NCBI GenBank assembly: GCA_026394715.1
Contig: JAPKXR010000230.1
Coordinates: forward strand, 1-64,000
DNA: 64,000 nucleotides
Reading direction: 5' to 3'
Source: Methanomicrobiales archaeon
GTDB lineage: Archaea; Halobacteriota; Methanomicrobia; Methanomicrobiales; Methanospirillaceae
The position numbers and the translations under genes were made by a program. Positions 16,961 to 23,212 of the stretch are shown here, piece after piece (position 1 is the stretch's first letter; the number at the start of each line of letters is the position of its first letter). The notes under the pieces were generated by a model. The model had not been told where the DNA came from. It did no database searches and saw nothing but the letters and a program-made list of their open reading frames with translations.

Positions 16961-18549
<1,589 letters not shown>

Positions 18550-18609
18550 GATATACTGTTCGGGACAGTTTATGAATAATCAGTAAAGATACAATAGTTG
18601 AGGAATTAT

Positions 18610-19026
18610 ATGGCGCAAAAGGCGATAAAACTCGGATTTGTAGTCGCAGAATTCAACCGCGACATCACCTACATGATGGAGATCGAGGGGCGGGAACACG
18701 CCGCGTTCCTTGGTGCTGAGGTATCGGAATGCATCTATGTCCCCGGGGTATATGACATGCCACTGGCTATCAAGAAGATGTTAAAGGACGGAAATGTTGA
18801 TGCGGTGGTTACGATAGGCTGTGTGATTGAAGGGTCTACACAACATGACGAAGTCGTGGTGCAGCATGCGGCAAGAAAGGTAATCGACCTCTCGCTCGAA
18901 TTCGGGAAACCTGTCACCCTTGGTATATCAGGGCCCGGAATGACAAGGCTTGAAGCGAATGACCGGATCGATTACGCAAAACGTGCTGTTGAATCTGCAA
19001 TAAAACTGGTCCAGAGATTGAAATGA
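18610..19026 (+). CDS. ribH: 6,7-dimethyl-8-ribityllumazine synthase
   Basis: [46 protein letters not shown]. Confidence 0.9.
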
Positions 19027-20275: not shown

Positions 20276-20301
20276 ATATTAAAAACCATCGGTTTTAATA
20301 T
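20276..20301. promoter_or_regulatory. Inverted repeat ATATTAAAA-ACCATCGG-TTTTAATAT upstream of the Nramp-like operon; candidate operator or RNA hairpin
   Basis: Exact 9-nt arms around an 8-nt centre whose CC and GG could also pair; intergenic, about 115-140 bp upstream of the likely start. Confidence 0.5.
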
Positions 20302-20417
20302 CATTACATAACAACATATGGATTGAAATGAACCAACGCTGGCTCTGATGAAGGGATGAAAAAGTAGTACCAGGATGTCCCTGAGCAGTCATCTATTCAG
20401 GAATGGGAGGGACCACT

Positions 20418-21686
20418 GTGAACTACGTTTCAAGATTTTATTACCAGTATCGCAGGGTCATTAAAGCACTCCAACTCTACCTCCTTATCGCCGGACCCGG
20501 TCTTATCGTAATGATCGCCGATAACGATGCCGGCGGGATCACGACTTATGCTGCGACTGGTGCGAAATTTGGCTACGCACTGATCTGGTTCCTTGTGCTG
20601 CTCGGGCCGGTTGCGTACTATGTACAGGAGATGACGGTGCGCCTGGGTGCCGTAACTAAACACGGGCATGCAGAGGCGATTTTTGCCGCATTTGGTCCTT
20701 TCTGGGGCTGGTTCTCCCTCCTTGACCTTTCACTGGTGAACTGGCTGACTCTTATTACTGAATTTATCGGGATGACTGCAGCGTTGAGTATTTTTAATAT
20801 CCCCCCTGTATTTACCGTAATAATTGTCATCGGCATCATGATGTTCATGGTCATGCAGGGCAGGTACTGGACATGGGAGAAACTGGCGATGTTCTTCTGT
20901 CTCTTAAACCTGGTGTATATCCCGGCCGCATTCATGGTGCACCCGTCTGTCGGGAGTATTCTCCAGAAGGGAATTATCCCGAACTTACCTGGCGGGCTCA
21001 CCGCGACATTAATTTTCTTCCTGATGGCAAATATCGGGACTACCATCGCACCCTGGATGATCTTCTTCCAGCAGAGTGCCGTAGTCGACAAGGGCATGGG
21101 AAAGAAGGATATTCCATGGGGGAGACTCGATACCATTCTTGGGGCGGTTTTCACGGTCGTTGTGGCAATTTTCATTGTTATTGTGACCGGGACTGTGTTA
21201 TATGGGATGGAAATTTCGAGTGCAGCCCAGGCCTCCACTGCGATGATGGGGACCTACCCGCTGGTGGGGACGCTCCTTGCAATAGGGCTGTTCGATGCAG
21301 GCCTGCTTGGTGCAATCTGCATCTCTCTCGCAAGTTCATGGGCGTTTGGGGAGGTTTTCGGCTGGGCACATTCCCTGAACAAAAGGATCCGTGAAGCACC
21401 CTGGTTCTATGCATATTATTTCTTTGCCATCATCACCGCAGGACTGGTTGTCCTCATCCCGAATGCACCCCTTGTCCTGATTACCCTGTTTGTCCAGGTC
21501 ATTGCGGTGACCCTGCTACCTGCAGCACTGGTGTTCCTGATCCTGCTGCTGAACAACGAAGAAATCATGGGTGAATACAGGAACACAACAGTCCAGAACG
21601 TGGTGAGTATCACCATTGTCATCGGGATCATCTCACTCTCCACGCTCTATGCCTTCAGTGTCCTGTTCCCGGAAATATTCGCCTGA
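20418..21686 (+). CDS. Nramp-family divalent cation transporter, NRMT-like (putative Mg2+ transporter)
   Basis: Multi-TM; LLIAGPGLIVMIADNDAGGITTYAATGAKFGYALIW (TM1) and IGTTIAPWMIFFQQSAVVDKGM (TM6). ORF from 20403; GTG at 20418 follows a GGGAGGG ribosome-binding-like sequence. Confidence 0.8.
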   Translation: MNYVSRFYYQYRRVIKALQLYLLIAGPGLIVMIADNDAGGITTYAATGAKFGYALIWFLVLLGPVAYYVQEMTVRLGAVTKHGHAEAIFAAFGPFWGWFSLLDLSLVNWLTLITEFIGMTAALSIFNIPPVFTVIIVIGIMMFMVMQGRYWTWEKLAMFFCLLNLVYIPAAFMVHPSVGSILQKGIIPNLPGGLTATLIFFLMANIGTTIAPWMIFFQQSAVVDKGMGKKDIPWGRLDTILGAVFTVVVAIFIVIVTGTVLYGMEISSAAQASTAMMGTYPLVGTLLAIGLFDAGLLGAICISLASSWAFGEVFGWAHSLNKRIREAPWFYAYYFFAIITAGLVVLIPNAPLVLITLFVQVIAVTLLPAALVFLILLLNNEEIMGEYRNTTVQNVVSITIVIGIISLSTLYAFSVLFPEIFA

Positions 21687-21697
21687 GGTGACGAGAA

Positions 21698-21922
21698 ATG
21701 GAAAAACTGGAACCAACTGGAAAAAGTGAGACCTGCGAAGGAAGCAGTGATAATTTCCTTGCGAAGCAGTTCTCAAAATTCACCGAGATAAACAAAAAAT
21801 ATGCGAAACCACAAATTAAAATGACCCCCATGGTCAGGATAGCCCTGCTGGGGCTCAGGATATACTTAATTGTCCTGGTGCTGGTGCTGGTATACAAATT
21901 TTTCACATTAATCAGGGTATGA
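21698..21922 (+). CDS. Small single-TM protein between the Nramp-like and MgtE_N/CBS genes
   Basis: 74 aa; charged N-terminal half and one C-terminal hydrophobic helix (VRIALLGLRIYLIVLVLVLVYKFFTLI); tight operon spacing. Confidence 0.65.
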   Translation: MEKLEPTGKSETCEGSSDNFLAKQFSKFTEINKKYAKPQIKMTPMVRIALLGLRIYLIVLVLVLVYKFFTLIRV

Positions 21923-21928
21923 GGTGGA

Positions 21929-23212
21929 GTGATGGAAAACAACACAATACAAAACCGGAAAAAGGCAGAAGATGAGTATTTCCTCTCTCATGTTATTGGT
22001 GCCGCCGTGCGTTGGAACGGGAAAAAAATCGGGAAGCTCTCCGACTTTGTTATTGTTGAAACGGGAAAGATCCCTGAAGTGACCCACCTCTCTATCCAGC
22101 GACCTTTTGGTTATCCCTCCCTGGTTGTTCCGATGAGCCGGGTCCTCGCATTTTCAGGGAGGGAAATTATCCTCCGGATAGAATCTGTTGAATCGTATGA
22201 GGGTTCCCCCGAAGAATCTGCATTCCTCCTCAAAGACCATATTCTCGATAAAAAGGTCATCGATATCGAAGACAAGGAAGTAGAAGTAGTCTACGATATC
22301 CGTATCGTATACCGGAACGGCAGGATCTATGTTACCGATGTCGATGTAAGTCGCTATGGCCTTTTGCGCAGGATCGGGCTGAAATTTGTTGCGGACCTGA
22401 TCCACAACTTTTCCCCGGACCGCGAGGAACAGATGATCTCCTGGACATTTGTGCAACCCCTGCCAAACCCGATGGGGAGTTTTCGGGGAAACGTAAAATT
22501 AAATGTCCTGATGGAGACTCTCTCTGAAATCCATCCCGTTGACCTTGCGGATATCCTCGAGGAACTCGACAACGAGCAGCGGGTCATGATCTTTTCTGAA
22601 CTTGATACCCGTCAGGCGTCCGATACCCTCGAGGAGATCGATCCGAATGTCCAGCGTGAACTCGTATCTTCCATGAAAAGGGAACGGGTTGTCCAGCTGA
22701 TCGATGAGATGACCCCGGGGCAGGCCGCGGATATCCTGTCGGTACTACCCGCATCTGATGCCGAGGTGATTATCCTGGCACTGGACAAGGACAATGTAAA
22801 AAAGATCCGCGCCATCCTCGAAAAACAGGAAGAGACCATCACCGACTATGCAACATCCGGGTATATCCGGTTCCCCCCAGAGATAACTGCAGAACAGGCA
22901 ATAAACCAGTATGCAGCTGTTGCGAAGGGAAAGGACGTCATTATGTACCTTTATGTGCTTGACAGGGAAGAACGCCTGCTCGGGGTGATCGATATCAAAG
23001 AGCTTCTCCAGGCTGAGGATATGAAAAAAATCGGAGAGATCATGGTATTTGATTATATCAGCCTCAGTCCAGATAGCACACTAAAAGACGCCAGGCGTAT
23101 GTTTGACCGGTATGATTTCCGTGCTCTCCCTATTACCGATGAAGGAAAAAAGATGCTGGGGGTTGTCCCGTACCGGGATGTGATGAACCTGACTCATCAC
23201 TTTATTGAATGA
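21929..23212 (+). CDS. PRC-barrel + MgtE N-domain + CBS-pair protein, no membrane domain
   Basis: 427 aa; N-terminal PRC-like segments, helical LMETLSEIHPVDLADILEELDNEQRVMIFSELD...TPGQAADILSVLPASDAEVI (MgtE_N), two C-terminal CBS motifs; no TM stretch. Confidence 0.82.
   Translation: MMENNTIQNRKKAEDEYFLSHVIGAAVRWNGKKIGKLSDFVIVETGKIPEVTHLSIQRPFGYPSLVVPMSRVLAFSGREIILRIESVESYEGSPEESAFLLKDHILDKKVIDIEDKEVEVVYDIRIVYRNGRIYVTDVDVSRYGLLRRIGLKFVADLIHNFSPDREEQMISWTFVQPLPNPMGSFRGNVKLNVLMETLSEIHPVDLADILEELDNEQRVMIFSELDTRQASDTLEEIDPNVQRELVSSMKRERVVQLIDEMTPGQAADILSVLPASDAEVIILALDKDNVKKIRAILEKQEETITDYATSGYIRFPPEITAEQAINQYAAVAKGKDVIMYLYVLDREERLLGVIDIKELLQAEDMKKIGEIMVFDYISLSPDSTLKDARRMFDRYDFRALPITDEGKKMLGVVPYRDVMNLTHHFIE

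Follow-up and report, generated by a model that had tools for sequence, protein, structure and literature searches.

The window, by which we mean the whole stretch of 64,000 nucleotides that was analysed, probably comes from a methanogenic archaeon, as the genomes nearest to it among named ones are those of Methanomicrobiales/Methanoregulaceae. Within it, three open reading frames follow one another on the forward strand, and all three are real at the position where the original prediction had placed a three-gene Mg2+ transport and sensing module. We refer to them as NR, SM and MG, and their features, together with the two metal-site motifs of NR, are as follows:

20403..21686, + strand: NR, an Nramp-related Mg2+ transporter (NRMT, by family) of the SM-associated branch, 427 aa; the likely true start is GTG 20418, which gives 422 aa
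20520..20537, + strand: TM1 metal site of NR, DNDAGG (D42, G45), which fits the NRMT signature DxxG (PMC8806188)
21036..21059, + strand: TM6 metal site of NR, GTTIAPWM (T213, A216, W218), which fits the NRMT signature TxxA/T; Trp replaces the proton-path His
21698..21922, + strand: SM, a 74-aa protein with one membrane helix, a basic N-terminal side and an LRxYL motif within the helix
21929..23212, + strand: MG, a soluble regulator with PRC, MgtE_N and a CBS pair; the likely start is ATG 21932

The gap between NR and SM is 11 nt and that between SM and the ATG of MG (21932) is 9 nt, and each of the three genes is preceded by a Shine-Dalgarno-like stretch. For NR, a GGGAGGG lies 6 nt upstream of GTG 20418, so that this codon rather than ATG 20403 is probably the start. 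In the window the operon's neighbours are genes for a Yip1-domain protein and an aminotransferase, and immediately before the latter (18088-19026) come two small genes that resemble, as judged by eye only, archaeal riboflavin synthase and lumazine synthase. NR is the sole Nramp of the genome, which possesses three CorA-family genes.

NR belongs to the Pfam Nramp family (E 1e-72), and in a phmmer search of PDB sequences its best match was EleNRMT (7qia and others, 2.8e-63), with the Mn2+ Nramps at 1e-18 or weaker; it also scores below the cut-off of the MntH subfamily. The motifs that the original prediction had read in TM1 and TM6 (DNDAGGI and TIAPWM) proved to be correct. TM1 carries D42-A-G-G45 at the place of the canonical DPGN and TM6 carries T213-T-I-A216-P-W218 at that of AxxMPH, while the two TM6b histidines are replaced by W218 and Q223, and the TM3 Glu (E120) and TM10 Gln (Q365) are retained. 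When aligned, D42, G45, T213, A216, W218, E120 and Q365 all agree with the site of EleNRMT, the signature described for NRMTs being DxxG in TM1 and TxxA/T in TM6 (PMC8806188). EleNRMT itself is a demonstrated Mg2+ carrier, by which Mn2+ is carried too (PMC8806188). Trees group NR with the NRMTs and apart from the outgroup Nramps, and NR falls outside the Mn/Fe clade, a placement in which had been set beforehand as counting against the prediction. The NRMT-type pattern is thereby upheld by match, site residues and trees alike, and as far as sequence can assign it NR is by family an NRMT. The description of NR as a ‘channel partner’ was right as to the Nramp fold but loose in its wording, since Nramp proteins are carriers.

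With the canonical SLC11/Nramp proteins (MntH, DraNramp, DMT1) NR has the Pfam family and overall fold in common, but it lacks the TM1 Asn and the TM6 Met and His, and the similarity is much weaker (1e-18). EleNRMT (7QIA) and the C. acetobutylicum proteins Ca_c0685 and Ca_c3329 resemble it in fold family, in the DxxG/TTIA site and in the loss of the proton-path His, and they resemble its relatives in the M-box. What separates NR from these NRMT/NrmT proteins is its position in a sister branch whose members carry SM or are fused to it, whereas EleNRMT has no fused SM and the MG-NR loci that we examined are without SM.

For MG, Pfam detected MgtE_N (6e-23), CBS (1e-16) and PRC (2e-4), which are laid out as two PRC-like beta domains (about residues 15-90 and 100-175), the MgtE_N helices (203-299) and the CBS pair (304-422), and MG matches the cytosolic domains of MgtE among PDB sequences. 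The AlphaFold2 model contains the same two beta domains, MgtE_N helices and CBS pair and is good locally but poor overall (pLDDT 83.7, pTM 0.42); Foldseek matched it to 8gps (4.9e-20) and 2yvy (9e-20), which are MgtE cytosolic domains. MgtE_N and CBS were present in all 49 MG proteins scanned, and PRC in 45 of the 49. As originally proposed, the MgtE membrane domain (PF01769) is absent from MG, which is therefore not an MgtE channel, and neither this domain nor a full MgtE was found anywhere in the genome.

MgtE_N and the CBS pair of MgtE from Thermus thermophilus align with MG over about 230 residues, MG being without the plug helix and the membrane domain, and we mapped onto MG the residues published for the cytosolic Mg2+ sites Mg4-Mg7 (PMC5882242) and for the ATP site (PMC5529423). 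At Mg4, D91 has become G264 and D247 is kept; at Mg5, D226 is kept and D250 has become N420; at Mg6, D95 is kept, and at Mg7, E59 has become D232. At the D91 position almost the whole SM-associated branch has Gly, Ala or Pro, and 8 of the 8 aligned proteins of MG-NR loci, which is a small sample, have Asp. The ATP site of the SM-branch MGs mostly still has Tyr170, a basic position 187, an acidic position 188 and Phe/Tyr at 227, but not Asn203. Because key acidic residues of Mg4 and Mg5 are lost and most of the ATP-site residues are kept, MG may respond as much to nucleotide as to Mg2+. The original view of MG as the Mg2+ sensor of MgtE is thus sound with regard to the MgtE_N and CBS modules, but a simple ‘Mg2+ sensor’ is too strong a term for a protein in which D91 and D250 are lost.

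Close relatives of NR, MG and SM are confined to the same 11 of the 150 genomes of the order, and for this reason their linkage is not a matter of chance; no strong SM match was found in those of the 150 genomes that lack NR. Between NR and MG, SM matches occur in 12 of the 12 closest archaeal loci, and the order NR-SM-MG is retained in 56 loci examined (window included), so that the triad is indeed conserved in other genomes as had been supposed. A scan of named genomes with the search motifs [VA]DNDAGGI and PWM[QIV]F[YF][IQ]Q yielded 80 loci (581 candidates). Since the scan used those motifs, the conservation of their letters partly reflects this choice, which did not extend to SM, MG or riboswitches. 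As many as 77 of the 80 loci lie in one branch, made up of 44 with NR-SM-MG, 21 with NR-MG-SM, 7 with NR-SM and five without SM by the first profile. Four of these five contigs end too soon after NR, and in the fifth (L173) SM was found with a broader profile. Wherever the contig reaches far enough SM adjoins NR in this SM branch (73 of 73 loci, in two gene orders). In the acidobacterial family of L130, the 43-46%-identical NR group (L186-L198) has SM in 13 of 13 loci, and no MG was found in their short flanks; several SM-NR loci are without MG. No SM was found in archaeal or acidobacterial MG-NR loci, nor in distant Nramp loci.

On a tree made by a quick method the SM branch has a support of 96, with EleNRMT and the MG-NR branch falling outside, and the window's own group of five rows, L115 among them, has a support of 93. 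Phylum names are those of MAG titles, for which binning errors are possible, and the linkage was confirmed in single-contig genomes (G017, G069, G085, G093 and G113) and in complete plasmids. Among 101 first neighbours no further family was shared by more than 5, and therefore the unit comprises NR, SM and MG only. Complete E. coli genomes lack the operon. The site itself also varies among related proteins. The NR genes of L175 and L178 encode NRMT-like proteins whose TM1 reads DTEAGSI and whose TM6 reads GAVIMPWM, so that the soft-metal position is again Met; no SM was found with them, and these proteins are possible intermediates in metal selectivity. A further SM-bearing NR group (L169, L172, L173, L176, L177, L193, L194 and L196-L198) has ENDxPSM in TM1 and GATVTPWM in TM6, a site that differs from that of the NRMTs, and has no MG within the flanks examined.

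SM has a single, strongly hydrophobic helix and no family match in Pfam or NCBIfam. Across 85 sequences L53 and Y56 of this helix are invariant, and R54 is found in 93%. The original prediction had cast SM as a possible bridge between NR and MG, which is not its general role, given that SM also stands beside NR where MG is absent; it therefore belongs first to the transporter. Moreover, SM forms the C-terminal end of a long NR protein in records of Leifsonia, Alicyclobacillus, Paraburkholderia, Burkholderia, Caballeronia and Streptantibioticus, and with the Leifsonia fused protein as query, 39 plasmid records aligned over at least 80% of its 545 residues. A Streptomyces clavuligerus protein with LRGYLL near its end looks like a fusion by eye and failed the SM profile. 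Such fusions were seen only in plasmid records, as no stop-to-stop open reading frame joining NR, SM or MG was found in the 80 scanned genome loci. According to hydropathy, the last usual NR helix of the fused proteins is followed by an extra hydrophobic helix, a basic stretch and SM:

L208 2869-4506, and also L210, L211, L212, L213 and L215: natural NR-SM fusions with the added helix

As is general for the family, an NR with 11 helices has its C-terminus outside, and given the extra helix of the fusions, the chain would therefore return inside and leave the N-terminus of SM in the cytosol. This N-in orientation, predicted for the fused form, is also the one predicted by the basic N-terminal side of stand-alone SM. 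The fusion is the best evidence for SM as a physical partner of NR, and it is likely that SM is a bound subunit of NR, a physical assembly that we infer. Single-helix accessory proteins such as KCNE, KdpF and MgtS accompany one transporter or channel, and SM would work likewise, as one membrane helix beside one transporter, with no relation in sequence being claimed. As the third component of NRMT loci SM has apparently gone unreported until now; our literature search found neither a small subunit of NRMT nor a description of a one-helix subunit for any Nramp-fold carrier.

With regard to the transported metal, Rfam identified an M-box riboswitch on the same strand upstream of NR in L115, L141, L146 and L168, and upstream of the SM-fused NR in L208, L210 and L213. 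These seven loci are from bacterial relatives, one of which (L115) belongs to the window's sister group, and they span the arrangements NR-SM-MG, NR-MG-SM, NR-SM and fused NR+SM; the other loci scanned yielded no M-box, and in the window Rfam found no riboswitch close to the operon. Such control of seven relatives points to Mg2+ as the likely substrate, in keeping with what had been predicted for the Nramp protein, and we regard it as very likely that Mg2+ is what NR mainly transports. MgtC or CorA genes adjoin some copies. On plasmids, MgtC/SapB genes are located directly downstream of units of NR-SM, or of fused NR-SM plus MG (L209 2941-5375, L208 5842-6624). Conjugative IncHI plasmids of Citrobacter freundii and Serratia marcescens carry NR-SM-MG with an NR that is 70% identical (L205 6321-9728, L206 4361-7725), and on these SM lacks annotation.

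The family was named NrmT by Shin et al. in 2014, who showed that members from Clostridium transport Mg2+ and are controlled by an M-box (PMC4072509). Most NrmT members adjoin a gene for the cytosolic part of MgtE, for which feedback control was proposed (PMC4072509), and both the pairing of an NRMT with an MgtE fragment and the idea of a sensor in trans are thus already known. The original suggestion that an MgtE sensor works in trans on an Nramp partner agrees with the conserved gene linkage, but as an idea it dates back to 2014. MG is of the same kind as these fragments, a pore-less cytosolic part of MgtE next to an NrmT, but here the order is NR-SM-MG or NR-MG-SM in place of MG-NR, the acidic residues of Mg4 and Mg5 are partly lost, and the PRC domains go unmentioned in that study. 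There, the NrmT of Acidobacterium capsulatum, which lies beside an MgtE-like gene, carried mainly Mn2+ and rescued Mn2+ uptake but Mg2+ uptake only in part, co-expression of the MgtE-like gene gave no better Mg2+ rescue, and in B. subtilis this gene was dispensable for NRMT transport (PMC4072509). It follows that the NRMT site motif by itself is no proof of Mg2+. What the MgtE-like gene next to NrmT does was not settled in 2014, and our literature search found no later answer. That MG acts on NR in trans is somewhat more likely than not; the direction of such regulation we infer.

NR might instead be mainly an importer of Mn2+ (or Fe2+) that has retained the NRMT site, with SM and MG regulating transition-metal uptake. 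The preference of the A. capsulatum protein (PMC4072509) and the Mn2+ carried by EleNRMT (PMC8806188) would suit such an importer, which we nonetheless judge improbable in view of the Mg2+ riboswitches over SM-branch relatives. Furthermore, the NRMTs that are ubiquitous in the family of L130 (Acidobacteriaceae) sit in a separate branch without SM, and these are probably the ones like the A. capsulatum protein, since they are mostly in MG-NR order where the flank shows the order. The whole unit could also be a module for survival of heavy metals, either a Mg2+ importer selected for maintaining Mg2+ influx during Cd/Zn/Co/Ni stress or one element of the metal-resistance machinery itself. The C. 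freundii and S. marcescens plasmid units adjoin an ArsR/SmtB-type (winged-helix) regulator and a P-type ATPase gene, which in Citrobacter is annotated as heavy-metal translocating and has a CDF gene nearby, NR-SM lies beside cadR and CDF genes in Acidithiobacillus caldus, and an NR-SM-type copy lies beside a metal-sensitive repressor in Acidiphilium. Judging by such copies, the system may be of benefit under metal stress, among other conditions, but there are few metal-resistance genes among the 101 first neighbours in genome loci, the window's own neighbours are the aminotransferase and Yip1-domain genes, and M-box control points to Mg2+ shortage, which together leave this module with little likelihood.

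Small membrane proteins such as MgtS and MntS exist, and SM could be an independent protein of this type (e.g. a protease-protecting or stress peptide) that is merely co-transcribed with NR. We find this hard to credit of a protein that gives no strong match in genomes of the order without NR, moves with NR across gene orders, has invariant residues inside its helix and, in its natural fusions to NR, preserves the orientation predicted for it. A stronger contender, though still an unlikely one, is that MG serves as a nucleotide sensor or as an expression or chaperone factor and not as a Mg2+-dependent gate. The loss of D91 (Mg4) and D250 (Mg5), the retention of Tyr170, basic 187, acidic 188 and Phe227 of the ATP site and the dispensability of the MgtE-like gene in B. 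subtilis (PMC4072509) all accord with this role, against which stand the retained D247, D95 and acidic residue at E59, and a co-transcription with the carrier that fits post-translational control.

NR, SM and MG are best explained as one operon, and on balance this operon probably encodes a regulated Mg2+ uptake system. In the mechanism that we propose, the NR carrier would admit partly hydrated Mg2+, driven by the membrane potential and without proton coupling, SM would add a further helix that packs against NR and has a cytosolic N-terminus, and MG would restrain or tune NR from the cytosol in response to Mg2+ and/or adenine nucleotide. More tentatively, it is nearly as likely as not that a large branch of Nramp-fold Mg2+ carriers operates as a multi-subunit complex of carrier and an obligatory SM, be it separate or fused, which in many lineages would be gated in trans by a detached MgtE-type regulator responsive to Mg2+ and/or adenine nucleotide.

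To the best of our knowledge no accessory subunit is known for any transporter of the SLC11/Nramp fold. If our reading is true, SM would be the first, and the gate of MgtE would have been reused on an unrelated carrier. The locus adds to the NRMT family a third component, apparently unreported, which accompanies the carrier itself, occurs as a natural fusion with NR in relatives and has a predicted orientation, and through such a component the question of the MgtE-like gene beside NrmT becomes testable. Should SM be a true subunit, SM-branch NRMTs reconstituted in its absence may not show how they truly behave. The system is widely mobile, conjugative plasmids included, and the benefit that it may bring to its hosts, be it Mg2+ in times of shortage or survival of metal stress, would be of broad interest.
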